From NCBI RefSeq assembly GCF_009617995.1, contig NZ_CP044130.1, positions 62,001-126,000 of the forward strand: a stretch of 64,000 bases of DNA. Reading direction: 5' to 3'. A program made the translations under genes and the position numbers. Below the pieces are notes generated by a model. The model worked only from the letters and a program-made list of their open reading frames with translations, did no database searches and was not told the origin of the DNA. This DNA comes from Halomicrobium sp. LC1Hm (GTDB lineage Archaea > Halobacteriota > Halobacteria > Halobacteriales > Haloarculaceae). Of the stretch, positions 14,779 through 62,291 are shown in pieces. The number at the start of each line of letters is the position of its first letter. Position 1 is the first letter of the stretch.

Positions 14779-15447
14779 ATGTTTGCTACCGTGAAGTCGT
14801 GGTTCGGCTCACTGTTTAGCGACAGTGACGACGGCCACCTGCTCGATCGTCCGAAAGAAGACCATCAGGTCAAACGTCAGGAGGCCAAACGGAAGCTCGA
14901 CGAGCTCAAGAGTCGGCGAGAAGAGCTGAAAGAAGCGCTCGAAGGCAAGCGCTCGAAATACGAGTCGGCGAAGGAAGCCGGTAACGAAGAGCAAGCACAG
15001 GACTTCCTTCGCGACGCAGAAGAGATCAAAGAGGAGCTCGAAACCGTAAGAGGGCGTATCGACGAGACGAGCAAACAGCGGAACCTGGCCTCGAACCTGG
15101 CGAACATCAAGGAGATCGGCGAGAGCCGGGGCGACGACTACTGGAGCCAGCTCCGGGAGATGGATCAGAGCGAACTGGTCCGGTTGTTCCAGCAAGAGGA
15201 GATGAAAAACGAGGAGCTACACGAGGTGCTCGGTCAGACGGATACGCTCTCTTCGAACACCCTGGATTCGTTCAGTGAGGGCGCGAGCCAGCTCCACACT
15301 GGCTCTGAACTCGAAGAAGAGTGGAGCGACGACACCCCCGAGACCGACGAAGAAATGGGCGAAGAGCCCACAGCAGTGGGGGACATCGAAACGGAATCGG
15401 ACACACTGAGCGAAGACGGCGACGACGAGACCGTCGAGTTTTCGTAG
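14779..15447 (+). CDS. Coiled-coil protein, possible ESCRT-III/PspA-like subunit 1
   Basis: A 222-residue, almost wholly helical protein. It opens with a short amphipathic hydrophobic segment (MFATVKSWFGSLF), then a strongly charged helical hairpin of about residues 30-110 (KRKLDELKSRREELKEAL... AEEIKEELETVRGRIDE). A helical stretch follows around 125-150, and the C-terminal tail from about 170 is very acidic. Amphipathic N-terminus, basic-first helices and acidic C-terminus at 200-240 residues is the layout of ESCRT-III/PspA/Vipp1 proteins. I see no diagnostic sequence signature, so the link rests on layout plus the Vps4-like ATPase two genes downstream. Confidence 0.45.
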   Translation: MFATVKSWFGSLFSDSDDGHLLDRPKEDHQVKRQEAKRKLDELKSRREELKEALEGKRSKYESAKEAGNEEQAQDFLRDAEEIKEELETVRGRIDETSKQRNLASNLANIKEIGESRGDDYWSQLREMDQSELVRLFQQEEMKNEELHEVLGQTDTLSSNTLDSFSEGASQLHTGSELEEEWSDDTPETDEEMGEEPTAVGDIETESDTLSEDGDDETVEFS

Positions 15448-15526
15448 CGGTTTTCTCCGATATGGAGATCCAGTAGAATGGGTTTAGTGCCAAAGTTTTA
15501 TTATGGTGCCTACCATGTACTCGTAT

Positions 15527-16147
15527 ATGGTTCAGTTCAGAGACTGGATACCAGGTAGCTGGGGCGGAAGTTCGAACGAGCTCATGGAGAAAGACGCCGA
15601 CGAACTCGACCTCGAAGCGCGGACCTTCGAAACTCAGATCGAGCTGAAAGAACAGGAGCTCGAACGGCTGGATCACCAGTTCGAGCAACTGGTCGAGAAG
15701 GGGCGGAAGGTCGCCGGACCTAAAAAAGAGCGACTGAAGCGAAAGGCCAAGCAGCTCAAGCGGGACTACGAGAACAAGGAAGCCGCGTGGCAGGAGATGC
15801 TGGAAGAGTACACCACCCTGCTGGCTGCCAAAAACGCCAAAGAACGGCTCGAAGAGCAGCCCCAGTCCTCGCTCCGAGATATGAGCGAGGAGGACGTACA
15901 GGCGTTCATGAAGGACATCGTTCGAGAGATCGAGAAGCGCAACAAGGACACGGAGTGGATCCAGCGCAAGGGAGACCAGCTCAACCGGACCCTCACCAGC
16001 GTCTCGCAGGACTTCGGGGCGACGATGGAGGAGTCGGAGATCGACACGCTGTTCCAGGACACCAACGAAGACCCGGTCTCGCTGAGCGAGCTCACGAAGG
16101 AAGAAGACGAGAGTGAGGACATCTTCAACGAGGAGCTGGGTCGCTAA
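15527..16147 (+). CDS. Coiled-coil protein, possible ESCRT-III/PspA-like subunit 2
   Basis: A 206-residue helical protein. Three in-frame ATGs exist (15503, 15515, 15527). I prefer 15527 because a TATA-like TTTATTATG lies just 30 bp before it. The N-terminus has a Trp-containing short segment (MVQFRDWIPGSWGG), then a long charged helical region (about 25-115) with a very basic middle (KKERLKRKAKQLKRD), a second helical region (about 125-165), and an acidic tail ending DIFNEELGR. Its layout parallels the previous protein. It is followed after 38 bp by the MIT-AAA ATPase, whose MIT-like domain could bind the acidic C-terminal tail. Function is inferred from layout and context. Confidence 0.45.
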   Translation: MVQFRDWIPGSWGGSSNELMEKDADELDLEARTFETQIELKEQELERLDHQFEQLVEKGRKVAGPKKERLKRKAKQLKRDYENKEAAWQEMLEEYTTLLAAKNAKERLEEQPQSSLRDMSEEDVQAFMKDIVREIEKRNKDTEWIQRKGDQLNRTLTSVSQDFGATMEESEIDTLFQDTNEDPVSLSELTKEEDESEDIFNEELGR

Positions 16148-16185
16148 CGCGCTCGCCGCGTTCCCGTCACACTAATTTTGTAACT

Positions 16186-17424
16186 ATGGATCTCGGACAG
16201 TACAAAGAGGACATCCTACAGGAACAGTACGAGGAGTACCTCAAGAAGGGGAAGTCACACCTCGATCAGGAGAACCACGAGAAGGCCGCGAAGGCGTTCT
16301 CACAGTCTCTCGATCGGTTGGAAGAGCTCGAAGCGATCCGGGAGACGACGTATCCGGATCGCAAAGAGCAACTGGAGTCGTCGATCTCGAAGCTAAAGAG
16401 CGGCGAGTCCCTCTCCGAAGAGGACATCGGCGAGGACCGCGGCGGCGAGGCCGAGGACGCCGAACAGCCGGAGTCGGACTTTCGTGAGCAAGTCGAATCG
16501 TTCATCTCCCAGACGGAGGTCACGTGGGACGACATCGGGGGCCTCGACGAGGTCAAAGGCGAGTTGAAGCGGACGATCACGCTGGGGGGCATCGACGACA
16601 AGCCCGACGCCGTCGCCGCGACCGATCGGGTCCTCCTGTTCGGCCCGCCGGGAACCGGGAAGACGCTGCTGGCGTCTGCGGTCGCTGGCTCGCTCGACGC
16701 GACGTTCTTCGACGTCAAGCTCGGCGGGCTGCTCTCGAAGTACTTCGGCGAGACGAGCAAGCAGATCACCGCACTGTTCGATCTCGCCGAGGAGATGAGT
16801 CCGAGCATCGTCTTCCTCGACGAGATCGACGCGCTGACACAGTCCCGCGAGTCCGACCTAGACGAGACGTCTCGGCGCGTGTTGAACACGCTGCTGTCGG
16901 AGCTGGACGGAATCGACAAGAACGACGATAGTTTCGTGATGGTTTTGGGCTCAACAAACACCCCTTGGGATCTCGATCAGGCGATCCGTCGTCGCTTCCC
17001 GCGACGGGTGCTGATCCCGCTGCCCGACGTGGGCGCGGCCGAGGAGATCGTCGCGATCAACACCGTCGAAGGCGGGATTACCTTCGAGGGAGAGCCCTCG
17101 GCGTTCCAGCTGTCAGACACCGGGCGAAGCGTCGACACACCAGTCGAGGCGATCGCCAGCGAGTGTATCCACCGCGATTTCACCGGCAGTGACGTGGAGG
17201 CGGTGTGTCGGGCCGCCGTCAACGCCATGATCAACCGGTCGAACACGGGACTGGCGTCCGTCGCCGACCGCGGCTTCGACGCCGTCAGGGAGTACGACCT
17301 CTCGGTCGACGCCGTCCGGCCACAGGACGTGCGGGAGGCGTTCGAACGCACCTCGGCCTCGCTCTCAGAGGAAAGCGTGCGGCGCTTCGACGAGTGGGAC
17401 CGAGAGTTTGGCTCCGGCGCATAA
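16186..17424 (+). CDS. AAA ATPase with MIT-like N-terminus (Vps4-like)
   Basis: A 412-residue protein. Residues 5-70 form a predicted three-helix unit (YEEYLKKGKSHLDQENHEKA...) resembling MIT/TPR-like domains. A charged linker (71-108) leads to the VTWDDIGGLDEVK entry motif (112-124) shared by Vps4, katanin and Cdc48. The single AAA module has Walker A GPPGTGKT (153-160), Walker B IVFLDEIDAL (208-217), sensor-1 STNTP (256-260) and arginine-finger region RRRFPRR (268-274). One AAA domain plus an N-terminal MIT is the Vps4 layout. It should remodel filaments or complexes, most simply those of the two coiled-coil proteins encoded just upstream. A CDC48/proteasome-type role remains an alternative. 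Confidence 0.8.
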   Translation: MDLGQYKEDILQEQYEEYLKKGKSHLDQENHEKAAKAFSQSLDRLEELEAIRETTYPDRKEQLESSISKLKSGESLSEEDIGEDRGGEAEDAEQPESDFREQVESFISQTEVTWDDIGGLDEVKGELKRTITLGGIDDKPDAVAATDRVLLFGPPGTGKTLLASAVAGSLDATFFDVKLGGLLSKYFGETSKQITALFDLAEEMSPSIVFLDEIDALTQSRESDLDETSRRVLNTLLSELDGIDKNDDSFVMVLGSTNTPWDLDQAIRRRFPRRVLIPLPDVGAAEEIVAINTVEGGITFEGEPSAFQLSDTGRSVDTPVEAIASECIHRDFTGSDVEAVCRAAVNAMINRSNTGLASVADRGFDAVREYDLSVDAVRPQDVREAFERTSASLSEESVRRFDEWDREFGSGA

Positions 17425-17508: not shown

Positions 17509-18165
17509 TTACGAGCTGAGGAAGTAGTTGCGAGCCCGTTTGGTTGCACTGGAGACTTTCTGGACGGCCTCGGTCGGTAGCTCGTCGCTTCTCGTGTTCT
17601 CGACGTTTTCGAAGGCCGTCTCCACGTCGGCGAGGATGTTGCGGTACCGCTCGTCGGAGATCGAGGCCTCGTGCATCATCGCTTTGAGTTCGCGCAGTTC
17701 GCTCTTGACCTCGTTGGTCGACCGAACGTCGCAGATCTTGAGCACGAGGTCGGCCTTGTACGGGATCGGACGATCGTCCCCACGAGACTGCTCGACCTCG
17801 ACTTCGAGTGCCGTACTGTAGCCGATCTGTACCGTGCAGTCGCCGGTGATCAGCGAGGGGTCACCGTTGGAGAGATCGATCTCGCCGAAGGCGTTTTGCT
17901 GTACCGTCTCGCTGCTCGACCCCGCGTCCTGGACGTACAGCTGGCTGTCCTCCTTGTAGAACTCGATGTATCCGGGCTCGCCGTCGTCGTCGAACTCGCG
18001 GGACACGGAGATGTCGTGGACGCCCAGCGAGGTGACGGACCCGTCCTTGTCGGCGACGACCGCTTCCCCGCGCTCGGGGACGCGATAGACGCGTACAGCC
18101 GACTCGTCTGTGACGGAGAGAGTCGCCGTCGACTCGGGATCGGCCGCACGGATGGTTGCACGCAT
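17509..18165 (-). CDS. FHA-like domain protein with helical C-terminus
   Basis: A 218-residue cytoplasmic protein. Residues 1-130 are beta-rich, with the order of elements seen in FHA phosphothreonine-binding domains: [12 protein letters not shown], then an [16 protein letters not shown] segment in place of D.gS.NGT..N, then [13 protein letters not shown] and CTVQIGYS. Residues 145-218 are helical ([20 protein letters not shown]...). It is convergent with the Vps4-like gene and divergent from the ferredoxin-kinase gene. A phosphopeptide reader next to a Thr kinase is a common pairing, so it may read phosphorylation by that kinase. The FHA call is by pattern and degenerate in places. Confidence 0.5.
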
Positions 18166-18278
18166 ACCAGGTAGTTAGCAACCGGTCAATTCAATCTTAC
18201 GAGTCGAGCGCGAACCGACGAATCAGCCCCGAAAACACCCGAAAAGGATTAATGAGGATCAGCCAGACAGAGAAGACA

Positions 18279-20297
18279 ATGAGCGATCGGAAACTGCCCG
18301 ATGTCGAAGCGGTCACCAGTCCCCCGCGTCGGTCGTTGCGATACGAGCACATCGAGACCAGCGACGAGCCGATCGGGCGAGGGGGACAGGCCGTCGTGTA
18401 CGAGGGACGGGTCACCGACGAGGAGCCACCGGACAGAATCGCACTCAAGGAGCCACCCCGAGCCGGGACGCTCACCGGCGACGCGATCGAACGGTTTCTC
18501 AGCGAAGCCCAGCGCTGGGAGACGGTCGACGGTCGAGAACGGAACAAGCAGCGCTGGACGGAGTCGGAACACATCGTCGGCGTCGTCGACACCGGCGACC
18601 GGCTGCCGTGGATCGCCATCGAGTACATGGGCGGTGGCACGCTCGCCGATCGCCTCGACGCGAGCGACGGCGGACTGGGACTGCCCCACGCGCTCTGGAT
18701 CGGCGAATGTCTCTGCCGGGGCCTGGCCGTCGCCCACGCCTACGGGATCGTCCACCTCGATCTCAAACCGGCGAACGTCCTCTTTCGCGAGACGGTCGCC
18801 GGGACGTGGGACCTCCCCAAGATCGGCGACTGGGGGCTGTCTCGGGTCCTCTCGGAGCAGACCGGAACGATGGACGGACTGTCGGTTGCCTACGCCGCGC
18901 CCGAACAGTTCGAGTCCGACGAGTTCGGCGATCCCGACACGCTGACGGACGTGTATCAGGCCGGTGCGATCGTCTACGCGCTGCTCACCGGCGAACCGCC
19001 TTACACCGGGAGTCAGACCGGCATCATGCACGACATCGTCTACGGAGACCCGCCGACGCCGCCCAGCGAGTACCGTGACGACGTGACCGAGGCCATCGAC
19101 GCGGTCGTGCTGACGGCGCTAGAGACCGAGAAGCGGTCGCGATACGAGAGCGTCCAGTTGTTCGAGCGGGCGCTACACGCCGTCCGGAGCGGTGGGCGGC
19201 TGCCGACGATCATCGCAGAACGGGTCGAGGACGCAGGTGGAGCCCCCGATAGGGAAAGGAGACGGGCAGACCAGTCCGGCGGATCCGAGAGCGACCGGGA
19301 CGAACAGACGAGCGAATCGGGGCGTGACCACCACGAGGAATCAGACACGACGGCACAGCGGTACACGACGACGGTGCTCGCAGTCGTCGACGAGCTCACC
19401 GACAGCGGGGAGCGGACGGTGTCCAGCGAGACGGTAGCAGAGCACGTCGAGGGCGGACGACAGTCGGTGCTGGATCGGCTCGACGAACTCAAGCAGGCGA
19501 ACCTGGTCGAATACACCTCCGACGGCCCCTCCGGCTACCGGCCGACGCGGCGCGGGGTCGAGCGCGCGAAGACGATCGAAGTCGACGTGTCGAGGACGGA
19601 CCAGAGTGGGGAGAGCGACGGTCGTGAGACCGGCGGGTCTCAGCACAGAGCGTCGAGCGTCGGTGTCGAAGCCGTCTACGAGGCGATCAGGGAGCGATCG
19701 CGGCGCGGAACCACGCCAGTTTCGAGCGTCGAGCTGAGCCGAGATCTCGACGCGAGCCGCGGGGCCGTCCTCGACGCGCTCGACGATCTGAAAGACGACG
19801 GCCGCGTGGCGTATCGCTCGGACCCAAACGGCGGCTACCACCGCACGGGCTCGCGGAGTTCGGTCGAGCGATCGAGCGACCGGGGTTCGACGGTGTCGTC
19901 CTCGCGGACGGCGACCGTCGAGTACCTGAACGACGAAGTCGTCGCAGATCGGGGGTGGGACCCGCGAGGCGGACGGGCGTTCACGCGGGCGGCCGCGAGC
20001 GACCTCCCGCCGGAGGACTACGGGACGATCGAGGTCGAGCGTGACGAGTACGTCCTCGAAGCCGCCGAGGCGGCGGGGCTCGATTGGCCCTTCTCCTGTC
20101 GTGCCGGGGCGTGTACGAACTGCGCGGCCGTCGTCGTCGAAGGCGAGATCGACATGGAGATGCAGCAGATCCTCGCCGACGAGGAGGTCGAACAGGAGGA
20201 CATGGTCCTGACCTGCATCGGGACGCCCGCGTCGGACCACGTCAAGCTCCTGTACAACGTCAAGCACAGAGACCGGCTCCAGAACAGAGTGATCTGA
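18279..20297 (+). CDS. Ser/Thr kinase fused to two winged helices and a [2Fe-2S] ferredoxin
   Basis: A 672-residue cytoplasmic fusion; the ATG at 18279 is preferred over upstream in-frame ATGs at 18156 and 18252. Kinase (about 28-302): glycine loop [15 protein letters not shown] lysine near 57, catalytic [11 protein letters not shown] (159-169), DWG for DFG (184-186), AAPEQF (206-211). Two winged-helix-like units follow (about 355-435 and 465-535), each ending in a GY wing. Residues 545-672 are a complete halophilic plant-type ferredoxin: starts [11 protein letters not shown], ligands CRAGACTNC plus a later LTC, ends LQNRVI, including the acidic insertion typical of haloarchaeal ferredoxins. 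The kinase may therefore be redox-gated, or phosphorylation may control an electron carrier. No frameshift is needed to join the parts. Confidence 0.9.
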
Positions 20298-21742: not shown

Positions 21743-24700
21743 TTACTCCCGGTCGTCCAGCTCGGAGAGACACGTCCGGAGGTCGTCGGCCACCTCGCCG
21801 TCGGCCCGCGCTGCCCGACGTTCGAGTCGCTCGCGGTGGGCAGCGAGTGACCCCGGATCGATCGCCGCGAGCGCGGCGAGGTCCTCGCCGGCCCGCTCTC
21901 TCGCCCAGCGGTCCGAGTCCGACAGCGCCGCGAGCAGAGTCGCCACCGCTCGCGAGCGGACCGTCGCGTGCCGCGTCGCCAGTCGCCCGAGCAGCCAGAC
22001 GGCGAGCCGGCGACGCGCTGGCCCGCCGCGTTCGTACCGGACGACCATCGCGGTGGCTACCGTCTCGGGCGTGCGTTCGGCGTGGCCCAGCAGGTCGAGG
22101 ACCGCGTCGGCGATCGCCGCCTGCGTTTTCGGTTCCCGGCCGGTCTGTCCCAGCAGGTGACCGATCGCCTCGTCGGCCGGGAGCACCGCGGTGGTTCCCA
22201 GCGTCGAGAGCGCCTCGATCGCGTTGACCCGCACCTCCCAGTTGTGGGCCTCACAGGCGTCGAGCAGCGTCGCGACGCCGCGGCGGTGCAGTCGCTCGTC
22301 GTCGCTCAGCGGGAGGAGCCGGGTGAGCGACGCGAAGACGGCCTCGTAGCGGTGGAGGTTCACCGACTGGGAGAGCAGTGCCGCCAGAACGTCGTCGCGG
22401 TCGGCGGGCGAGAGGGCCGTCGCGACGTGCTCGAACGAACGCGTCCGGGTGGGCTCGTCGGCGAGGACGAGAAACTGCGCGATCACCGTCGGGTCGAGGG
22501 CCGGTTTCGTCGGCTCATCCGGCCACGATTCGAGGATCGTCTCGTAGGACGAGTCCCCGCCCAGCCCCGCCGCTCGCGCGGTCACCGTCGCCAGTCCGTC
22601 CGTGGTGAGGCTGTCCCGCGGGAGATCGTAGTGCGGGGACGCCGCCGCGGGCGAGGTGAGAAAGTCGACGGTCTCGGCCAGCGCCCACCCGAACGACGCT
22701 GTCGCCGTGTGGTTGGCCCGCGCACAGGTGGCGACGACGCGAAAGAGCCAATACGTCGACAGCGGGCTGGTCGTGATATCCTGGAAGTTGGTGACGATCT
22801 CGTCGTCGTACTCCTCGTGGAGGCGCTCGCCGACGGCGTTTAGCTGTCCGTGGACGGTGCCGGGCGTGTCCTCGGCGGCGGCGACGAGCAGGCGACCGGC
22901 CGCCCGGGTGACACACGGCGGCGTCTCGGAGACGAGCGCAGTGAGTGGCCAGCACCGCGAGCCGTCCTGACATTCCTCGTCTCGGGCGCGCACGAGCGAG
23001 TCGAGCGTCACCGCGTCGTGGGTCCAGAGCATCGACACCACGGGGAAGAGTGCGGGCCAGGTCACGCGATCAGCCCCGATGCGATCACACAGCGTGTCGG
23101 CGACGGGTGCGAGCGCCTCGGGATCGGCGTGTCCGATGCGGGCGAGTCCGCCGGCCGCGGAGCGCCTGACGCCGCGTTCGCGTGCCCGCAGGTGGGTCGT
23201 CAGTTCCGCGACCACGCGGTCGGTGACCGACGGCTCGGTCGCGCCACAGCGGCCCAGCGCGTGACAGGCCGCGACCGCGACGTACCGCGGTCCGTCGACC
23301 GCGTCGACGAGGGCGTCGACGAGCGACGGCGTGACGGAGAGCGCGTCCCCGACCAGCGCGGCGGCCGTGTGTGCGGCCTGGGCGCGAACGGCACCGGACG
23401 GATCTCGCAGTCGCTCGATCACCACGGCCGCGAGCGCCGCCGACTCGTCTCCGCCGCGGACACGCAACGCGGACAGCGCAACGTCTCGGACGCCGGGCGA
23501 CGGCGCGGCGGCGTACTGACAGAGCAGCGGGGCGACGCGCTCGGCCGGCGGTACCGACGAGCGGGCTCGCCCGCCCGGCTGATCTGGACGGGGCGCGAGC
23601 GTCGACAGCGCGCCCAGAACGGCGGTCGGCGCGGCCGTCTCGGAGAGGGCGACGGAGCTCGCGAGGAGGTGCTGGCGAACGGCCGGGCGCAGCGACGGGT
23701 CGCGTGCGGCGATCGAGACCAGCCGCTCACAGGCGCGTCGACAGCGAGCGCGAGCGGTCGAGGCGAGACGGGACGCGATCTCGGCGACCGTGTCCGTCGT
23801 CGCCGCGCTCGGATCGACCGGGTCCGGTCGATCGGTGGCCGCCTCGCCGTCCAGCAGCCCACGGGCGGCATCCCTGACGGCGGGGTGGGGATGGCGACGC
23901 CAGGCGTCGGTGCCAGGGAGTGTGTCGGCGCGTCCCATCGTGTCCAGCAGCGACGCCGTCAGCTCGCCGTCGTCGGTCCAGAAGCGGTCGGCGAGCCAGT
24001 CCCGTGCCGGGACGGTCTGGGGAGCGTGCTCGGCCAGCGCCGCCGGCCACGCCGTCTGGCTGGCCCGTTCACGAGAGCGAGCGCCGTCGGGGAACGGCGA
24101 CCACCCGGTTCGACACCGAAGCGAGAGCCGCGGGTGGGCCGTGACGAGAGCCGCCAGCCGTTCGGCCCGCGGAGTCGAGAGGGACTCTGCGGGCGGATAC
24201 GAGCAGAGGATCTCGGCGACGACGACCGGGTCGTGATCGACCAGCAGGGAGAGACACGCGAGCAGCGGCGTCTCCTCGCGCCGCTCGGCCAGCGAGTGCA
24301 GGCGGTCGCGCGCCCGTCGCTGCACCGCTTCGTCGCCGCCGAGAAAGAGCGCCGTCGAGAGCCACGCGAGCAGCGGCGGGGAGACCGACGCCGATCGAAC
24401 GACAGCCTCGATACGGCGAACCGTCTCCGGGGCGAGTCGCCCGCCCTCGGCGACGGCGGTCGCGAGTGTCTCCGCGACGCTCACGTCACCCTCCTCGGAG
24501 AGGAACTCGACCAGCGTGGGGGCGGCGTCGGTGACGGCCCGTGGCGTGGCCTCGGCCAGTCGCTGGAGCGGGCTGGACTCGGGCTCCGAGTCGACGATGT
24601 CGAGGCCGTCGCCGTCGTCCTCGGCGTCACGACGCTCGCGGAGGACGCGACACTGCACGGCGACCGGTCCCAGACGATCCCGAGCGTCCGTCTGCCCGGT

Positions 24701-26212
24701 CGCGACGAGCACCGCCACGGCCCGCGGCCGCACCGCGGGATCGTAGGCGGCGACGGGCCAGGCAATTTGGCCGAGGACCGGAGACAGAGCCGGGGTGTCC
24801 TCGGCGAGTCGCTCGAACACCGACAGCACGCGCCGCCGGACGTGCTCGTCCTCGTCGGCGAGCAGCGACTGCAGGATGCCGACGGCCGCGAGTCGATGGC
24901 TGTCGGCGTGACAGGCGATCGTCTCGCAGATCGAGAGGCCGGCGTGTCGGAGCCCGCTGTCCTCGGCGTCCCGCAGAGTGCGTGCGACCTGGAGGTGCCG
25001 GTCGCGGTCGACGACGCCGACGAGTGCCGATCCCAGTTCCTCGATCGGGTCGGGAACGCCCAGCCCACCGTGGGGCGAGAGCTGGAACCACACGAGCACG
25101 TCGACGAGATACCGCGCCGTCTCCGGGTGGTCCGAACGCAGTGCGCGGGCGGCCGCCAGGAGCGCGTCGACGGCGGCCCCGGCGACGTCGTCGTCCCCGT
25201 CAGTCAATCGCCCCACTGCGTAGCGCAGGAACCGGTCGCGGTCGAACGCCGACGGCTCGAACGTGTCCGCGATCGCGTCGAGGGCCGCGATCCGGACCCG
25301 CCGGTCGTCGTCCGCCGTCGCGGTCAGGAACAGCGCCGAGTACGTCTCCGCGAAGCGGGGCTCGTGTCGCGCCACCTGCCCCAGCGTCTCGACGGCCGCC
25401 GCTCGGACCGCCGGGTCCGAGTCGGTCCCACGGGCGGCGACGCGGTCCAGAAACGGCTCGACGCGGGCCGGCGCTGGGACGCCGGTGTCGAACTTCGCCC
25501 CGCGGCCAGCGGTGTCGCCGAGGGTCTCGACGGCGGCGGCCCGAACCTCGGGAGACGGGTGATCGAGCAGCGACGCGACCGTGTCCAGTCCCGCGAGGTG
25601 GTCGGGCAGGAACTGCCCGATCCGGCCGAGCGTCCCGAGGGCCTCACAGACGGTGGCCGGGTCCTCACTGTCCAGATCCCAGACGAGGCCGGCGACGAGC
25701 GGACGGAGCATGGCCGGTTCGCTCGCCGCGATCCGCACGACCGCCCAGGCGGCCTCGACCCGGTGTTCCGAGTAGTCGTTCGCGGTCAGCGCGACCAACG
25801 GCCCCAGCAGTGGCTTCACCACGCCGGGAGCCGCCGTCCCGATATCGCCCAGCAGCGCCGAGAGCGCGGCGTGGTCGATGGCGGAGTCGTCGGGATGTGC
25901 GAGCGGTCGGCGGAACGTCCCGACCAGCGGCGTGAACGCGCGCGGTCGGTCACAGCCGAGGTCGCCAAGCACCGCCAGTTCGGCCCGCGTCGGGATCGCA
26001 CCCGGCCCGATCGAGGACTCGACCGCGTCGAAAATCTCGGTCGCCCGCTCGGGCTGCGAGTCGGCGGCCGCCGTGAGTGCCGCGAGTGTGGCGCGTCGCC
26101 GCCCGATCGTCGCCGCGTCCAGCGCCGGGAGCGCGCGGTCGATCACGGTCTCGCCAGAGACGCGCCCGGTCTCGAACCCGACGCGGAGCGCCCGCGGCGT
26201 CCGGTCGGACAC
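21743..26212 (-). CDS. Giant HEAT-repeat scaffold protein
   Basis: A 1489-residue protein starting with GTG at 26212, 2 bp after the vWA gene stop. The whole length is made of helical hairpins of HEAT/Armadillo type, for example DPAVRAAAVETLGQVARHEP and SPEVRAAAVETLGDTAG in the N-terminal third, with similar units to the C-terminus (DSDRWARERAGEDLAALAAI). No catalytic motif, signal peptide or membrane segment is visible. Such solenoids bind proteins, so it may be a substrate adaptor or platform for the MoxR-vWA pair encoded immediately upstream in the same apparent operon. Confidence 0.8.
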   Translation of the reverse strand: MSDRTPRALRVGFETGRVSGETVIDRALPALDAATIGRRRATLAALTAAADSQPERATEIFDAVESSIGPGAIPTRAELAVLGDLGCDRPRAFTPLVGTFRRPLAHPDDSAIDHAALSALLGDIGTAAPGVVKPLLGPLVALTANDYSEHRVEAAWAVVRIAASEPAMLRPLVAGLVWDLDSEDPATVCEALGTLGRIGQFLPDHLAGLDTVASLLDHPSPEVRAAAVETLGDTAGRGAKFDTGVPAPARVEPFLDRVAARGTDSDPAVRAAAVETLGQVARHEPRFAETYSALFLTATADDDRRVRIAALDAIADTFEPSAFDRDRFLRYAVGRLTDGDDDVAGAAVDALLAAARALRSDHPETARYLVDVLVWFQLSPHGGLGVPDPIEELGSALVGVVDRDRHLQVARTLRDAEDSGLRHAGLSICETIACHADSHRLAAVGILQSLLADEDEHVRRRVLSVFERLAEDTPALSPVLGQIAWPVAAYDPAVRPRAVAVLVATGQTDARDRLGPVAVQCRVLRERRDAEDDGDGLDIVDSEPESSPLQRLAEATPRAVTDAAPTLVEFLSEEGDVSVAETLATAVAEGGRLAPETVRRIEAVVRSASVSPPLLAWLSTALFLGGDEAVQRRARDRLHSLAERREETPLLACLSLLVDHDPVVVAEILCSYPPAESLSTPRAERLAALVTAHPRLSLRCRTGWSPFPDGARSRERASQTAWPAALAEHAPQTVPARDWLADRFWTDDGELTASLLDTMGRADTLPGTDAWRRHPHPAVRDAARGLLDGEAATDRPDPVDPSAATTDTVAEIASRLASTARARCRRACERLVSIAARDPSLRPAVRQHLLASSVALSETAAPTAVLGALSTLAPRPDQPGGRARSSVPPAERVAPLLCQYAAAPSPGVRDVALSALRVRGGDESAALAAVVIERLRDPSGAVRAQAAHTAAALVGDALSVTPSLVDALVDAVDGPRYVAVAACHALGRCGATEPSVTDRVVAELTTHLRARERGVRRSAAGGLARIGHADPEALAPVADTLCDRIGADRVTWPALFPVVSMLWTHDAVTLDSLVRARDEECQDGSRCWPLTALVSETPPCVTRAAGRLLVAAAEDTPGTVHGQLNAVGERLHEEYDDEIVTNFQDITTSPLSTYWLFRVVATCARANHTATASFGWALAETVDFLTSPAAASPHYDLPRDSLTTDGLATVTARAAGLGGDSSYETILESWPDEPTKPALDPTVIAQFLVLADEPTRTRSFEHVATALSPADRDDVLAALLSQSVNLHRYEAVFASLTRLLPLSDDERLHRRGVATLLDACEAHNWEVRVNAIEALSTLGTTAVLPADEAIGHLLGQTGREPKTQAAIADAVLDLLGHAERTPETVATAMVVRYERGGPARRRLAVWLLGRLATRHATVRSRAVATLLAALSDSDRWARERAGEDLAALAAIDPGSLAAHRERLERRAARADGEVADDLRTCLSELDDRE

Positions 26213-26214
26213 GG

Positions 26215-28116
26215 TCAGGCCTCCGTCGAGAACAGCGCCCTGACGAGGCGCTGGATCGTTCGTGCGAGGGTGTCCGTCTCCGCGTGGACGATGCGGTCGA
26301 AGTACTCCGTGTGGGTGCCCGGTTCCGACCCGATGTAGACGCCGAACACCGGGACGGTACAGGCCGCCAGTTGAGACCGGTAACGGTCGGGGTGGTCGGG
26401 CTCGCCGTCGGTCACGACGACGACAAACGGGTGAGACCCCTGCCCGTCGTCGAGGCGCTCACGGGCGACGGCGACGGCCGTCGAGAGCGGCGTCCCCCAG
26501 TCTGCGCGTTCGGTCATCAGGCGATCGACGTGCTCGGACGGGCGACCCCCGAAGGGGAGTTCCAGGCACGGGTACCCCTCCCAGATCGACAGCACGGACG
26601 CGTCGACCCCGACCGCGAACAGCGCGTGGACGAGCTGGGCCGTCGCGGTCTCGGCCGTCCGGATCGGTTCGCCGTCCATCGATCCCGACCGGTCCAGCAC
26701 GACCAGACAGGAGTAGTCTTTGGCCGTCCCGGACTCCCGGCGGGTGAAGACCCGCTGGGTCCCGTGGCTCGCGTCGACGAGTCGTCGCCCGTCGAGTCGG
26801 CCGGTGCGATGGCCGGGCGCGTCTCTGGGACGGCGCTCTCGACGAAGCTGCGTCGAGAGGTCCCGCTGGAGCTGCTTCGAACGCCCGACCGCGTCGTCCC
26901 AGCGGTCGCGGTCGCCACCGTCCTCGGCGGGGTCGACGACGATCACTTCTTCGAGGGCCGTCGACTCGTCGTCGACGACGGCGAGCAGTTCGCGAGCCTC
27001 GCGTTCGAGGGGCGACCGGCCCGAGCCCGCCCGGTTCGACTGGGCGCGCACGCGCTGTCGCCGGACTCGTCTGACCGTGTCGGCCTCGACGCTGCCCGGC
27101 GGCCGACGGTCCCCGTCTCGATCGGCGACGCGTCCCGCATCGTTGGCCTCAGAGGCAGAGCGCCCGTCGGCAGAGCTGTCTCCGGCGACGTGGGCGCTGG
27201 CTGCACCGTCGTCTGGCAGCTGGTCGGCCGCGTCGGCGGTCCACCCGGCGCGGGCCCGCGCGTCGCTGGGCCGGACCGGCGCGGTCTGGAGCCGGCCGTT
27301 CTGTCGCGGCGGGAGCCCCGCGAGGGTGTCTCTGGCGGTCTCGAAGAACTCGGAGGCCCGCTCGACCCGTCGGGTGCCGTCGGGCTCGGAAAGCACGTCC
27401 GCGACGAACTCGTCCATCGCCGGGACGAGCTCGCGGACCGCCTCCCGCTGGCCGTCGTAGACGACGCGCCGGTCGTCGTCCGGGTCGACGATGGCGGCGA
27501 AGCGACCGCTATCGACGAAGCCACGGTCCAGCAGTCCCACGGCCAGGGCTTCGAAGACGGTGTAGGACTGGACCGGCTCGCCGTCGACGGTCGCGAGGTC
27601 GAACAGCTCGACGTACGCGCGGTGTCGCTCGTCGGCCCGCGAGACGAGCACGTCGTTGAGGACGAGAAAGTCGTCGCTGACGCTGAACTCGTTGGCGATC
27701 TGGGTCTCGACGACGCCGTCCTCGGCGGTGTTGTACACCATCCGAAACAGGTCGCGCCAGCGCCCGTCGACACGCTCTAAACGGTCGCCGAACCGGTCGA
27801 AATCGGAGTAGTAGACGTGGCCCAGTTCGTGGAACAGAAAGGCGACCTGGATCGAGCGATCCCACAGCCCCGGCGGCAGCGCCGTGCCGGGCTGCTCGTA
27901 TTTCTCCGTCGGCAGCACGATCTCGTAGGCGTCCGGACTGCCCTCGGCCGGCCGAGCGAACGCTCGCTGCTCGTCGAAGGCGATCGAGATCGTCGTCTCC
28001 CTGTCCGTACACAGCGACGCGAGCCGTTCGAGCTCTCGGCGGCGCTCGCTGGACGCTCGCTCGGGCGTCGAGAGCGCGGCCAGATCCGCCGCCTCGGTCT
28101 GTGCTGTCAGTCGCAT
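26215..28116 (-). CDS. vWA-domain protein with HELGH metallopeptidase-like N-terminus
   Basis: A 633-residue protein. Residues 85-200 hold an HExxH motif (HELGH, 96-100) followed by YYSDFDRFGDRL and a downstream ENxxxxE-like EDGVVETQIAN, a pattern seen in CobT/vWA proteins that bind zinc or keep a dead peptidase fold. A disordered Arg/Ala-rich middle (about 280-460) leads to a vWA domain (467-633) with an intact MIDAS: DRSGSM (475-480), a Thr in WGTPLS and VTDGEPD. It directly abuts the MoxR ATPase gene (1 bp). MoxR-vWA pairs act as metal-insertion or complex-remodelling chaperones, the vWA partner recognising the client. Client unknown. Confidence 0.85.
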   Translation of the reverse strand: MRLTAQTEAADLAALSTPERASSERRRELERLASLCTDRETTISIAFDEQRAFARPAEGSPDAYEIVLPTEKYEQPGTALPPGLWDRSIQVAFLFHELGHVYYSDFDRFGDRLERVDGRWRDLFRMVYNTAEDGVVETQIANEFSVSDDFLVLNDVLVSRADERHRAYVELFDLATVDGEPVQSYTVFEALAVGLLDRGFVDSGRFAAIVDPDDDRRVVYDGQREAVRELVPAMDEFVADVLSEPDGTRRVERASEFFETARDTLAGLPPRQNGRLQTAPVRPSDARARAGWTADAADQLPDDGAASAHVAGDSSADGRSASEANDAGRVADRDGDRRPPGSVEADTVRRVRRQRVRAQSNRAGSGRSPLEREARELLAVVDDESTALEEVIVVDPAEDGGDRDRWDDAVGRSKQLQRDLSTQLRRERRPRDAPGHRTGRLDGRRLVDASHGTQRVFTRRESGTAKDYSCLVVLDRSGSMDGEPIRTAETATAQLVHALFAVGVDASVLSIWEGYPCLELPFGGRPSEHVDRLMTERADWGTPLSTAVAVARERLDDGQGSHPFVVVVTDGEPDHPDRYRSQLAACTVPVFGVYIGSEPGTHTEYFDRIVHAETDTLARTIQRLVRALFSTEA

Positions 28117-31797: not shown

Positions 31798-31934
31798 CTG
31801 CAGGTCGTTGGACCGGGAGTGGCTTCAACGTACTGACCGAGCGGAACGTGACCGAGGAGTATCCGTATTCGCTCCGATTCGAGACGTGTTCTAGTGGGAA
31901 GATAATTTGAACTGGAAGTCCTACGCCGAGAGGA

Positions 31935-34805
31935 GTGATGGACACCGACGAGGATTCGACTCGTGAGATCGACAGTCTGCGGCGTGACGCCGATGCCGCT
32001 CCGGCCCGGGTAGATCTCGACGCGGCCGGTCGGTTTCTCGATAGCAACCAGCCCGAGAACCGCCAGACAGCGACCTACGTGTTCAAGCAGGTCGCCAAAT
32101 CGGACGCACGGCGAGTGAGCGGCTATCTCGACAGTCTCGAACCGCGTCTCGACGATTCGAACGGCAAGACGCGAAACTTCACGCTGTTCGCGTTCAGCGA
32201 GGTCGTCGAAGTCGCCCCCCAGCGGGTGAACGACTATCTCGACGCGATCGAGCCACGGCTCGGCGACGAGAGCGAAAATACGCGAAATCTCGCGACCTAC
32301 GTCTTCAAGGAGGTCGCCCAGGAGGACCCCCGGCAGGTGATCGACTCGCTTGGCGCAGTCGAACCACGACTCGACGACGCCGAGCAGTCGACACGGAACT
32401 TCGCGGTCTCGCTGTTCAGCGAAGTGGTCGAAGTCGACCCCCGGCGAGTGAGTGACTATCTGGACGCGATCGAACCGCGACTCGGCGACGAAAGCGAGAG
32501 CACGCGAAATCTCGCGACCTACGTCTTCGGAGAGGTCGCTAGGGAAGAGCCCCGACAGGTGATCGACTATCTGGACACGATCGAGCCACGACTCGACGAT
32601 GCCAAACGATCCACGCGGAACTTCGCGACCACCGCGTTCAGCGAAGTCGTCGAAGTCGCCCCCCGACCAGTGAGTCGTTATCTGGGCGCGCTCGAACCAC
32701 GACTCGACGACGAGAGCGAGAACACGAGACACCTCGCGGCCTACGTCTTCAAGGAGGTCGCCAAGGAGAAGCCGCGGCACATGAGCGGCTATCTCGACGC
32801 GCTCGAAGACTGCCTCAACGATCGGGAAGAGAAGACGAGGAACTTCGCAACGTACGTCTTCAAGCAAGTCATCAAAAAGGAGCCACGCCTCGCGTATGAC
32901 TATCTCGACGCGCTCGAAGCCCGTCTCGACGATCAGGGCCAAGAGACGAGAAACTTCGCAGCCTACGTCTTCAAGGAAGTCTCCAAGGAAGATCCACGGC
33001 TGACGATCGACTATCTCGACGCGCTCGAAGATCGCCTCGATGACGGAAGCCAAAGGACGAGAAACTTCGCAACCTACGTCTTCAAGCAAGTCGCCAACGA
33101 GAAACCGAACCAGGTGCTCGACTATCTCGACGCGCTCGAAGACCGCCTCGACGATGCGAGTGGGAATACGCGGAACTTCGCGACCACCGCGTTCGGCGAA
33201 GCCGTCGAGGTTGCCCCCCAGCGAGTGAGTGGTCATATAGACGCGCTCGAACCACGGCTCGACGACGAGAGCGAGAATACGCGAAACCTCGCGGCCTACG
33301 TCTTCGGAGAGGTCTCCAAGGAAGAGCCCCGGCAGACAATCGGCTACTTAGACGCACTCGTACCACGGCTCGACGACCCCAAACGAGCGACGCGAAACTT
33401 CGCGACCACGCCATTCAGAGAGGGCGTCGAGGTCGCCCCCCAGCGAGTGAGTGGCTATCTGGACGCGCTCGAACCACGGCTCGACGACGAGAGTGAGAAC
33501 ACGCGGAATCTCGCGACCTACGTGTTCACCGAAGTGGCCAAAGAAGAGCCCCGGCAGGTGATCGACTATCTGGACGCGATCGAACCCCGACTCGACGATC
33601 CGAAGCGATCGACACGAGAATTCGCCGCCTCCACGTTCGCAACCGTATCCGAAGAAGATCCGTCACAGGTCGTCGACTACCTCCCGTCGATCGTCCCACT
33701 GCTGGCAGACGGGAACGACACCGTCGAGGACTGCGCAGGATCCTGCTTCGCCCAGGTCGCCAGACACGATCCCGAACCGTTGCGAGACCTGATCCGCTCT
33801 TCCGAGTCGAAGCAGTTCGGAGAGGCGGCGGTCGAGCGAGTAGCAGCAATTCTGGCTGCAAACACGTCACAAGACGACGAGGACGACATCGCAGAGTCGA
33901 CACAAGACGGCGAGGACCACATCGCAGAGTCGAGCCACGTCGACGAACACGTCGACAAACGGCGACCGGCAGACATCCCAGGTGCGCCAGAAGCGGAGAT
34001 CGCCCTCGACGAGATCGAAGAGGAACGGACGATCGGACAGGGAGGCAACGCCGACGTGGTGGAAGCGTCGGTTCCGGGGACGGTGGACACGTCGATCGCG
34101 ATCAAGAGACCGCGGATGTCGGGGACGGTTCACGGCGAGACGATCGAGCGGCTGCTCGACGAAGCCGAGCGGTGGGAGAGGCTGGACGGACACGACCACA
34201 TCGTCGGCGTCGTCGACTGGGGGGCGAGCCCGGTCCCGTGGATCGGAATGGAGTTCATGGACGGCGGACACCTCGGCGAACGGGCCGGGGAGATGAGTCT
34301 GGCCCAGAAGCTCTGGACCGCGCTCGCAGTCACGAAAGGCGTTCGCCACGCCCACAAACACGGCGTCGCTCACCTCGATCTCAAGCCCGAGAACGTCCTC
34401 TTTCGGACGGTCGAAGACGCCTGGGACGTGCCGAAAGTAGCGGACTGGGGACTCTCGAAGCAGTTGCTCGAACACTCCCAGAGCGTCCAGGGACTCACGC
34501 CACAGTACGCCGCACCGGAGCAGTTCGACGACGACTACGGGACCAGCGATCACAGCACGGACATCTATCAGCTCGGCGCGGTCTTCTACGAGCTGTTCAC
34601 CGGACAGCCGCCGTTCGACGGGAATCCATCGAAGGCGATGTACCAGATCCTGGAGAGTGAGCCGACGCCGCCCAGCGAGATTGCAGCGGTCCCACCACGC
34701 GTCGACGAGATCCTGTTGACGGCACTGTCCAAATCGAAGGCCCAGCGGTACGACGATATTCTCTACCTTCGGGACGCTCTACAGGAAGCGTGTGAAGACC
34801 TGTAG
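31935..34805 (+). CDS. HEAT-repeat Ser/Thr kinase (fifteen 37-residue repeats)
   Basis: A 956-residue fusion. Residues 42-596 are fifteen consecutive 37-residue helical hairpins with consensus RNFATYVFKEVAKEEP then YLDALEPRLDDESENT, followed by a decaying sixteenth. An acidic hinge with short repeats (DDEDDIAESTQDGED..., about 635-675) leads to the kinase (689-956): IGQGGNADV, AIKRP, HLDLKPENVLF (815-825), DWG (838-840), AAPEQF. Repeats are unusually uniform, which suggests recent duplication or strong selection on spacing. The curved solenoid may sense a partner protein or clamp kinase substrates. It is divergent from the propeller-kinase gene across 137 bp, so the two may share control. Confidence 0.9.
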   Translation: MMDTDEDSTREIDSLRRDADAAPARVDLDAAGRFLDSNQPENRQTATYVFKQVAKSDARRVSGYLDSLEPRLDDSNGKTRNFTLFAFSEVVEVAPQRVNDYLDAIEPRLGDESENTRNLATYVFKEVAQEDPRQVIDSLGAVEPRLDDAEQSTRNFAVSLFSEVVEVDPRRVSDYLDAIEPRLGDESESTRNLATYVFGEVAREEPRQVIDYLDTIEPRLDDAKRSTRNFATTAFSEVVEVAPRPVSRYLGALEPRLDDESENTRHLAAYVFKEVAKEKPRHMSGYLDALEDCLNDREEKTRNFATYVFKQVIKKEPRLAYDYLDALEARLDDQGQETRNFAAYVFKEVSKEDPRLTIDYLDALEDRLDDGSQRTRNFATYVFKQVANEKPNQVLDYLDALEDRLDDASGNTRNFATTAFGEAVEVAPQRVSGHIDALEPRLDDESENTRNLAAYVFGEVSKEEPRQTIGYLDALVPRLDDPKRATRNFATTPFREGVEVAPQRVSGYLDALEPRLDDESENTRNLATYVFTEVAKEEPRQVIDYLDAIEPRLDDPKRSTREFAASTFATVSEEDPSQVVDYLPSIVPLLADGNDTVEDCAGSCFAQVARHDPEPLRDLIRSSESKQFGEAAVERVAAILAANTSQDDEDDIAESTQDGEDHIAESSHVDEHVDKRRPADIPGAPEAEIALDEIEEERTIGQGGNADVVEASVPGTVDTSIAIKRPRMSGTVHGETIERLLDEAERWERLDGHDHIVGVVDWGASPVPWIGMEFMDGGHLGERAGEMSLAQKLWTALAVTKGVRHAHKHGVAHLDLKPENVLFRTVEDAWDVPKVADWGLSKQLLEHSQSVQGLTPQYAAPEQFDDDYGTSDHSTDIYQLGAVFYELFTGQPPFDGNPSKAMYQILESEPTPPSEIAAVPPRVDEILLTALSKSKAQRYDDILYLRDALQEACEDL
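32058..33722 (+). repeat. In-frame 111-bp tandem repeats inside the HEAT kinase
   Basis: Fifteen units of 111 bp encode the 37-residue HEAT hairpins. Units alternate between two sub-types (RNLATYVF.EVA and RNFATT.F.E.VEV), so the ancestral duplication was probably of a two-unit 222-bp block. Several blocks still share long identical DNA runs. Confidence 0.85.
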
Positions 34806-49879: not shown

Positions 49880-49930
49880 CAGTTCTACAAGAGCAAAGAT
49901 TGATTATTCGAGTAACCGAAATATTACCCG

Positions 49931-51952
49931 ATGGAAAACCGTCTTCGGTGGCGCTTTGAGACCGAACACAATACGTTTCGGTCGTCACCAACGGTAGTCG
50001 ACGGGACTGTCTACATCGGGAGTGACGGAGCTGGATACCTCGAGAATAGCAACGGTCTTGTCCACGCGTTGGCCGCCAGCGATGGTACGGAACAGTGGCG
50101 ATTTCAGACACAAGCCGGGGTGCTGGCCTCGCCAACGGTTGTTGAGTGGACCGTATTCGTCGGAGATGGGGACGGAACCGTCTACGCGCTGGATGCCAAT
50201 GGCGGCACTGAACAGTGGCAGTTCCAGACACATGACACGGTGAGGTCGTCACCCACGGTCGCTGATGGAACCGTCTTCGTGGGAAGTGACGACGGGAAAT
50301 TGTATGCCCTGCACGCCGAAACCGGCGAGGAGCAGTGGCAAGCGCATATTATCTTCGACGGCTGGTCGTCCCCAGTTGTCGTCGATGATACTGTCTTCGT
50401 TGGAACCGACAACGAATCAAGGTATTCTTCCCATGTCTACGCGCTGGATGCGGAGACGGGAGAGCGTCGATGGGTGTTCGATTCAAGACGTTCGATCAGG
50501 TCTTCACCGACGGTGGTCGATGATACGGTCATCTTTTCAGTCACCAACGGCACACTATCTGCTCTGTCTATCGACACCGGGGAAGAACGGTGGATTTCCA
50601 ATATCGGTTTTAATTGTAGGTCATCACCGACAGTTGCAAACGGCGTCGTTTTCGTCGGCAGTCACGACGAGCACGTGTACGCAGTGTCTGCAGACGACGG
50701 TACCGAGCGGTGGCGCTTCGAGACCGATGATTCGGTGCTCTCGTCACCAACGGTGGCTGATGGAGTCGTTTTTGTCGGTAGTCGCGACGAGCACGTGTAC
50801 GCTGTGTCTGCGGACGACGGCACCGAGCAGTGGCGCTTCGAGACGAACCACTCAGTGTGGTCGTCCCCAACTGTGGTTGACGGGACCGTTTTTGTCGGCA
50901 GTGATTCGGTCTATGCTCTAGAAGCGGATATCGAAGGAACGAGCGAGGGATCGCGGGTCCGACTTGGTGCTCTCGGTCACCACGACCGCACGGGCCACGG
51001 CGACGAACCGCAGCACCGGGAGGAACAGCGGTCGCACCCTGGGAAGAATCGAGAGCGCCTTCAGCAAACTACTGAAACCGCTGCGCCGCTCCGGATCCCA
51101 CACTCAGCCCCCCCGGAGACAGTCCCGGAACCGCCCCAGATTGATCTCACTGTCGAAGAGATCAGTATCGGGGATCAAATCGGTACAGGTGGAAATGCGG
51201 ACGTGTTCCACGGCTCCGCGGAAGCACTGGAAGAGACTGTCGACCTCGCAATCAAGCGGCCCCGTTTTCCGCGCGGGCAGACGGTTGATCCGAGGCCGCT
51301 GTTAGAGGAGGCCAACACGTGGCAACGCCTTGATGATCACGACCATATCGTCACTGTCGTCGACTATGGAACCAATGACGGCCTCCCCTGGATCGCGATG
51401 GAGTATATGGATGGTGGTCACCTCGGCGAGCGAGCTGGCACGATGGAGATCCAACAGGCGCTGTGGACGGCGATCTCCATTACGAACGGTGTCTATCATG
51501 CTCACCAGTTGGGGGTGGTCCACTGTGACCTCTCTCCTGAGAACATCTTGTTCTGCGAGATCGACGACGCCTGGGACGCTCCGAAGATTGCGGACTGGGG
51601 TCTGGCCAAGCGACTCTTAGAACAGTCACGAAGCCGCGATGAGATGACCGTCGAGTACGCTGCTCCCGAGCAGTTCCACTCCGACGAGTCGACTGGAAAA
51701 CACACGGATATCTACCAACTGGGTGCGGTCCTCTACGAATTGTTCACGGGTCGTCGGCCATTTGAAGGAGACATTTATACGGTGATCGACCGAATTAAAA
51801 ACGAGAATCCAGTGCCCCCCAGTACTGTCGCCGACATTCCCACAGCACTCGATGCTCCCCTGCTCCAGGCGTTAGAAAAATCCAGAGACGATCGGTACGA
51901 CGACATAATCTATCTCCGTGATGAACTCGAAACCATCGCCTCCTGGAATTGA
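49931..51952 (+). CDS. PQQ-propeller Ser/Thr kinase
   Basis: A 673-residue protein with no signal peptide. Residues 1-320 are about seven PQQ-like blades (RSSPTVVDGTVYIGSD, VYALDANGGTEQWQFQ). A basic linker (about 330-400) leads to the kinase (411-673): IGTGGNADVFHG, AIKRP, DWG (145 residues into the kinase), AAPEQF. The catalytic loop reads HCDLSPENILF (531-541), with Ser in place of the near-universal Lys, which may weaken catalysis. The domain order is the reverse of the 29227-31797 kinase. GC is lower than in the other kinase genes, so it may have been acquired or be evolving differently. Confidence 0.88.
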   Translation: MENRLRWRFETEHNTFRSSPTVVDGTVYIGSDGAGYLENSNGLVHALAASDGTEQWRFQTQAGVLASPTVVEWTVFVGDGDGTVYALDANGGTEQWQFQTHDTVRSSPTVADGTVFVGSDDGKLYALHAETGEEQWQAHIIFDGWSSPVVVDDTVFVGTDNESRYSSHVYALDAETGERRWVFDSRRSIRSSPTVVDDTVIFSVTNGTLSALSIDTGEERWISNIGFNCRSSPTVANGVVFVGSHDEHVYAVSADDGTERWRFETDDSVLSSPTVADGVVFVGSRDEHVYAVSADDGTEQWRFETNHSVWSSPTVVDGTVFVGSDSVYALEADIEGTSEGSRVRLGALGHHDRTGHGDEPQHREEQRSHPGKNRERLQQTTETAAPLRIPHSAPPETVPEPPQIDLTVEEISIGDQIGTGGNADVFHGSAEALEETVDLAIKRPRFPRGQTVDPRPLLEEANTWQRLDDHDHIVTVVDYGTNDGLPWIAMEYMDGGHLGERAGTMEIQQALWTAISITNGVYHAHQLGVVHCDLSPENILFCEIDDAWDAPKIADWGLAKRLLEQSRSRDEMTVEYAAPEQFHSDESTGKHTDIYQLGAVLYELFTGRRPFEGDIYTVIDRIKNENPVPPSTVADIPTALDAPLLQALEKSRDDRYDDIIYLRDELETIASWN

Positions 51953-61733: not shown

Positions 61734-62291
61734 TCAGGTGAGGACGACGACGTTCCCCATCCCGCGGCGCTTGCGCTCGATGAGGTCCCGCGCTTCGAGG
61801 TTGTCCAGCGCTCGGCTGACGGTCGCCTTCGACACGTCGGTCTGCTCGACGATCTCGCTCTGTGGGAGCACGCCGTCGGCGTCGAGTACGGCCTCGTAGA
61901 CGATCCGCTCGTTGTTCGCGAGCCGGTCTGCCACTTCTTCCCACTCGCTGCGCCGGGCCGCCAGCAGTTCCGACGGCGCTGTCTGCTCGTCGTCGTCGGC
62001 TGGGCCGTCCGGCTCTGGGACCGGTCGGTCCGCTGGCGATGCAGGCTCGCCCCCAGTGAGGAGGACGGTCGCACTCGCGCCAGCGGCGAACGCCGCGATC
62101 GTGAGTGCGATCGCGCCGCCGGGGCGAAGCGACGGACCCAGCGTCCCGGCCCGCACGGTGGCGTCTCCCATCGCGACCGTGATCGACGGCGGCGTGACGA
62201 GGCGGACGGTCAGCGCGACCGTCACGGCCGTCGCGGCGACGAAGGTCCCGGCGGCGACGACCGTTCGTCGGTCGCGGTTCTCGCTGCTCAT
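61734..62291 (-). CDS. Membrane-anchored winged-helix regulator
   Basis: A 185-residue protein. Two hydrophobic segments (about 10-30 and 58-80) are followed by an acidic linker and a cytoplasmic winged helix (about 115-185: NERIVYEAVLDADGVLPQSE, SKATVSRALDNLEARDLIE). Similar membrane-tethered HTH proteins are common in haloarchaea. Its start overlaps the stop of the exported protein upstream by 4 bp, so the two form a pair: an outside part and an inside DNA-binding part. Confidence 0.75.
   Translation of the reverse strand: MSSENRDRRTVVAAGTFVAATAVTVALTVRLVTPPSITVAMGDATVRAGTLGPSLRPGGAIALTIAAFAAGASATVLLTGGEPASPADRPVPEPDGPADDDEQTAPSELLAARRSEWEEVADRLANNERIVYEAVLDADGVLPQSEIVEQTDVSKATVSRALDNLEARDLIERKRRGMGNVVVLT

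Follow-up and report, generated by a model that had tools for sequence, protein, structure and literature searches.

A probable Halo_FHA-type ESCRT gene cluster with a Vps4-type ATPase in Halomicrobium sp. LC1Hm

Haloarchaeal systems of the ESCRT type were described in 2024 by Makarova et al. (PMC10936438). In the Halo_FHA clade of that paper, an FHA protein having a CdvA-like C-terminus accompanies ESCRT-III and Vps4; kinases, phosphatases, and two accessory proteins are present at some of the loci, and phosphorylated proteins are proposed to be the ESCRT cargo, i.e., the sorted client. The Main clade, according to the same paper, also contains Halobacteriales. An ESCRT-III-like protein of H. 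mukohataei served as a query in the study of Liu et al. from 2021 (PMC8281802). Because both reports precede this analysis, the cluster found in Halomicrobium sp. LC1Hm is a further member of a published kind. The original prediction for this DNA placed the established ESCRT/Cdv systems in Thermoproteota and Asgard archaea, with halophiles using FtsZ, and held that the locus may encode an independent membrane-remodelling or stress machine; a view of halophiles as lacking ESCRT is outdated by the loci published in 2024, and the idea of an independent machine gives way to the fit of the locus to the haloarchaeal ESCRT signature outlined there.

The window, i.e., the whole 64,000-nucleotide stretch of DNA that was analysed, corresponds to positions 62001–126000 of a 224-kb contig. 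Three ORFs lie on its plus strand exactly where a three-gene module had been predicted: cc1 (14779..15447), coding for an ESCRT-III-like protein of 222 aa, cc2 (15527..16147), coding for a second ESCRT-III-like protein, and a gene for a Vps4-type AAA ATPase of 412 aa (16186..17424), composed of an MIT-like head followed by a single AAA domain. The cc2 ORF opens at 15503, and its start is likely to be at 15527, the position at which RefSeq starts the H. mukohataei orthologue and on which the relatives of cc2 agree in their consensus. The block is syntenic with a part of plasmid pHmuk01 of H. mukohataei (93% DNA identity), while the H. katesii orthologues sit on a 2.96-Mb scaffold. The dN/dS values against H. 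mukohataei and H. katesii, 0.05–0.17 for all genes of the cluster, together with the synteny with pHmuk01, indicate that cc1, cc2, and the ATPase gene are genuine genes under purifying selection. The module is larger than originally predicted, as the FHA-like gene (17509..18165, minus strand) and the kinase gene (18156..20297, plus strand) located downstream also belong to it.

The ATPase carries the WDDIGGL motif, named in the original prediction as a Vps4-type entry motif, and GPPGTGKT; its MIT-like head spans approximately residues 5–80, the AAA domain is single (Pfam AAA, 2e-40), and the C-terminal helix ends with WDREFGSG. The CdvC (4e-43) and CDC48 (9e-48) models do not decide its affiliation, since neither score is near the curated cut-off. 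In a maximum likelihood tree it joins the Vps4s of other Halobacteriota (support 100/99) and is set apart from the double-AAA Cdc48 proteins of its own genome. Its relatives in other Halobacteriota, 33–41% identical to it, are encoded next to ESCRT-III-like pairs, kinases, and the two accessory proteins. Pfam MIT is matched by four of the eight ATPase relatives from which a profile of the MIT-like head was built, and the PDB matches of this profile covering most of the domain include 2w2u (0.0058), 4lcb CdvC (0.22), and 2v6y (0.61). The first of these, named p60 katanin in the database record, we take to be an archaeal Vps4 MIT domain. The N-terminal domain matches both MIT and TPR profiles, and its predicted MIT-like character is retained on the strength of weak matches to archaeal Vps4/CdvC MIT that cover the greater part of it. 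A TPR in place of the MIT head was rejected: most PDB matches are short TPR stretches (20–43 of the profile), and archaeal Vps4/CdvC MIT proteins are among the hits that span most of the domain. Katanin and spastin align with the whole length of the C-terminus, and the best 60 matches of its profile comprise Cdc48, katanin, and spastin and no Vps4; it supports placement within the AAA group, not with Vps4 specifically.

For cc1 and cc2, no significant function-informative match was obtained in Pfam, NCBIfam, or PDB sequences, and neither protein significantly matched Snf7 (Pfam) or solved ESCRT-III in direct sequence comparison. The Snf7 model also misses nine of ten ESCRT-III-like proteins encoded beside Vps4 in other Halobacteriota, and a search for the Snf7 family across haloarchaea returned mainly PspA and other coiled coils. 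The tandem ESCRT-III-like genes adjoining Vps4 in other Halobacteriota, with which cc1 and cc2 are collinear, served as the reference set. In hhalign comparisons with this set, the cc2 family reached 95.5% over 156 columns and the cc1 family 93.5% over 187 columns, the latter alignment taking in the post-hairpin segment and a tryptophan close to the tail. Control families gave near-zero scores with cc2, the seryl-tRNA synthetase hairpin scoring 0.3% with cc2 and 0.4% with the reference set; with cc1 it scored 93%, but over only 57 columns, and so the profile score of cc1 is less specific. Profiles of the reference set gave no significant match in the PDB (CdvB, E 0.1), and because of this weak link to solved ESCRT-III the identity of cc1 and cc2 is derived from locus context, fold, and profile taken together. 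These profile matches and the position of the ATPase in the tree bear out the earlier reading of the three genes as an ESCRT-III pair with a Vps4 bearing an MIT-like head.

AF2 models of both proteins display the helix order expected for ESCRT-III (hairpin alpha1–alpha2, then alpha3–alpha5). In cc1 the hairpin is formed by helices 26–66 and 70–117, followed by short helices up to residue 171 and an acidic tail; in cc2, whose model is of low confidence, the hairpin comprises helices 32–68 and 72–118. The final 60 residues are acidic, with a net charge of −24 in cc1 and −13 in cc2. Helical hairpins and acidic tails had both been predicted; the amphipathic N-termini predicted alongside them were not recovered, as the N-termini are hydrophobic, yet their amphipathicity does not exceed that of randomised orders of their own residues (p 0.74 and 0.79). 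The VIA structure list for cc1 is headed by two members of the ESCRT-III superfamily, Asgard ESCRT-IIIB with a Z of 11.1 and PspA with a Z of 10.7, and ESCRT-III/PspA/Vipp1 account for 18 of its first 50 rows, although a Z of 11 is below the level held safe for long helices. Fold searches with the low-confidence cc2 model yielded nothing more specific than generic helical bundles, CdvB2 standing at rank 31. A pattern search found no canonical MIM1 or MIM2 motifs in the tails of cc1 and cc2; these motifs are also missing in the ESCRT-III-like genes of other Halobacteriota, and an independent study did not find MIM2 in Euryarchaeota (PMC8970359).

PspA and Vipp1 share with cc1, judging by its structure list, the same helical hairpin core, but membership of cc1 and cc2 in this family was rejected in view of the lack of a match of either protein to the PspA_IM30 model, the poor profile match to haloarchaeal PspA (15%), and the presence of a true PspA, matching PspA_IM30, elsewhere in the genome. 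A second PspA-like gene, at G000:C1:974130-974809, is apparently split in two frames (PspA_IM30 2–113 and 115–217). It could also be argued that cc1 and cc2 are unrelated long coiled coils encoded next to an AAA unfoldase, e.g., of a disaggregase or a chromosome-associated complex, in keeping with the weak coiled-coil matches to SMC/Jet and seryl-tRNA synthetase and with the absence of a significant Snf7 match. This is improbable, since cc1 aligns with the ESCRT-III-like family over nearly its full length, the post-hairpin region included, while the seryl-tRNA synthetase match covers the hairpin only, and cc2-like genes stay beside MIT-AAA genes across genera, being kept upstream of them in the 18 aligned sequences.

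The FHA-like protein, with its helical C-terminus, resembles the published arCOG13166 and contains a conserved VSR...G..N...LG pattern; it does not match Pfam FHA, and its profile matches mostly FHA domains, at weak values (E 0.2–0.9). Used as an independent query against 391 haloarchaeal genomes, it was found in 20 of them. In the neighbourhood count, comprising 18 further loci and leaving out three Halomicrobium genomes, both cc2-like and MIT-AAA genes were recovered at 14 (at 13 the two genes share the stretch, while in the genome G132 they are on split contigs). The two accessory proteins known from archaeal ESCRT loci have homologues at most of these 18 loci as well, and on the replicon of the window these lie approximately 21 kb upstream, where they adjoin kinase and PP2C genes and a further pair of cc2-like genes. 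For arCOG08177, arCOG09748, and arCOG13166, the label was assigned from the published description. The two cc2-like paralogues form a tandem immediately upstream of the gene resembling arCOG08177 (L018 9968-10681 and 10755-11369), approximately 24 kb before the cluster.

The kinase gene, whose start is probably near 18279, codes for a Ser/Thr protein kinase fused to a winged helix and a 2Fe-2S ferredoxin (Pkinase 2e-23, HrcA_DNA-bdg 1.5e-6, Fer2 1e-13, and Frdxn_Halo 3.6e-53). In this fusion the ferredoxin is of the haloarchaeal type and of full length, and more than one winged helix is present; H. mukohataei has an intact ORF, but that of H. katesii is split between two frames (L064 12141-14182). 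Kinase fusions abound on the replicon (window 31911-34802 and 49916-51949; L018 3324-6143 and 6195-9032): kinases are joined to HEAT repeats or to a PQQ propeller, and in one protein the kinase precedes duplicated EF-Tu-type domains 2/3. Further downstream, a HEAT-repeat protein of 1489 aa is encoded on the minus strand (21743..26212; HEAT_2 3e-27, with PDS5 and Adaptin_N weaker). Synteny of the gene extends to both H. mukohataei and H. katesii; its product is a possible scaffold, and its membership in the module is uncertain. A gene for a vWA-domain protein (26218-28116) adjoins it.

The cluster resembles Halo_FHA of PMC10936438 in its occurrence in Halobacteria, the ESCRT-III genes upstream of vps4, the FHA-like partner, the Ser/Thr kinase and the phosphatase, and the arCOG08177- and arCOG09748-like proteins encoded on the replicon. 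It differs in that vps4 and the FHA-like gene converge and the accessory genes are some 21 kb away, with the two further ESCRT-III-like paralogues beside them. The Main euryarchaeal ESCRT (loci L122-L128) likewise has a tandem ESCRT-III-like pair, an MIT-Vps4, and kinases, and its ATPase is 33–41% identical to that of the window; however, no FHA-like gene was detected in the L122-L128 stretches, and cc1 and cc2 are strongly diverged. The cluster is provisionally assigned to Halo_FHA, not to Main, because of the FHA-like gene and because ATPases of the window's kind form a group of their own beside the others. With the Cdv system of TACK archaea (CdvA/CdvB/CdvC) it shares ESCRT-III and a Vps4 with an MIT head, but its ESCRT-III tails lack a canonical MIM and the host has FtsZ; no CdvA-type gene was seen in the neighbourhood.

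The form of the cluster with a Vps4-type ATPase was seen in three genera, Halomicrobium, Halarchaeum, and Halorubrum. Its distribution is patchy, most haloarchaea lacking it, and in H. mukohataei and Halarchaeum it is located on a plasmid; a scan of viral contigs found nothing. Both the patchiness and the plasmid location would suit a phage-defence or conflict module in which the AAA ATPase and the kinase sense infection and the coiled-coil proteins act as scaffolds or effectors, as would the matches of the kinase to the PD-T4-6 and mad6 models and of the ATPase to IetA. Such a role is nevertheless hardly likely and was set aside: the matches reflect kinase and AAA folds in general, the genes scanned include no partner of a named defence system, and the gene order and partners match archaeal ESCRT loci rather than defence. 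Also hardly likely is a cell-division machine like Cdv of Sulfolobus, since, even though division in TACK archaea is run by ESCRT-III and Vps4 (PMC7617429) and the C-terminus of the FHA family is described in PMC10936438 as CdvA-like, the genome contains five genes of the tubulin family (FtsZ/CetZ) and the cluster is missing from most haloarchaea and plasmid-borne in a close relative.

At other haloarchaeal loci with the same partners, ten MIT-AAA genes group in the tree with a Cdc48-branch protein, not with Vps4. The loci in question, L024, L025, L094-L096, L098, L100, L101, and L104-L107, carry cc2-like, FHA-like, and accessory genes, and ten of their MIT-AAA genes were included in the tree. 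Constraining all MIT-AAAs to one clade was rejected (AU p = 0.002), in a tree with long branches and a small outgroup and with the grouping named after the alignment had been seen. The association of this ATPase grouping with the same gene set suggests a replacement of the motor. Tentatively, two forms of the haloarchaeal module can be distinguished: a rarer one with a true Vps4, represented by the window, and a commoner one in which a Cdc48-branch AAA bearing its own MIT-like head would have replaced Vps4, with the ESCRT-III-like, FHA-like, arCOG08177-like, and arCOG09748-like genes kept. The grouping may coincide with one of the clades that Makarova et al. have already published.

The identity, order, and conservation of the genes, their homology to ESCRT-III and Vps4, and their co-occurrence with FHA-like and kinase genes are those described above. 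The cluster is probably the core of a Halo_FHA-type ESCRT, with cc1 and cc2 as the filament subunits, Vps4 as the motor, and the FHA-like protein and the kinase (with the PP2C encoded elsewhere on the replicon) as a phosphorylation switch. Filament assembly by cc1 and cc2 and its remodelling by Vps4 through the tails are modelled on established ESCRT biology (PMC7617429), and polymerisation, membrane action, MIT–tail binding, and recognition of a phosphorylated client are proposed by analogy. The FHA-like protein would recruit cc1 and cc2 once a phosphorylated client is present, and the two subunits would co-assemble at the cytoplasmic membrane. The MIT head of Vps4 would then grip their acidic C-terminal tails, and the subunits would be threaded through the pore of the Vps4 hexamer; this remodelling of the filament would make the membrane bend and either bud or reseal. 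As five tubulin-family genes and PspA are present, vesicle budding or membrane sorting is a more likely role than division or repair of the generic PspA type, and we infer a phosphorylation-controlled membrane remodelling or budding rather than division.

The cluster bears on the idea, put forward in PMC10936438, that phosphorylated proteins are the ESCRT cargo. If the replacement of the motor is confirmed, it would mean that the filament and the motor can evolve separately. Most work on archaeal ESCRT concerns Sulfolobus and Asgard archaea, yet haloarchaea are among the archaea easiest to image and manipulate; a compact ESCRT set that is linked to phosphorylation, partly plasmid-borne, and accompanied by FtsZ would make it possible to test the function of ESCRT freed from division.
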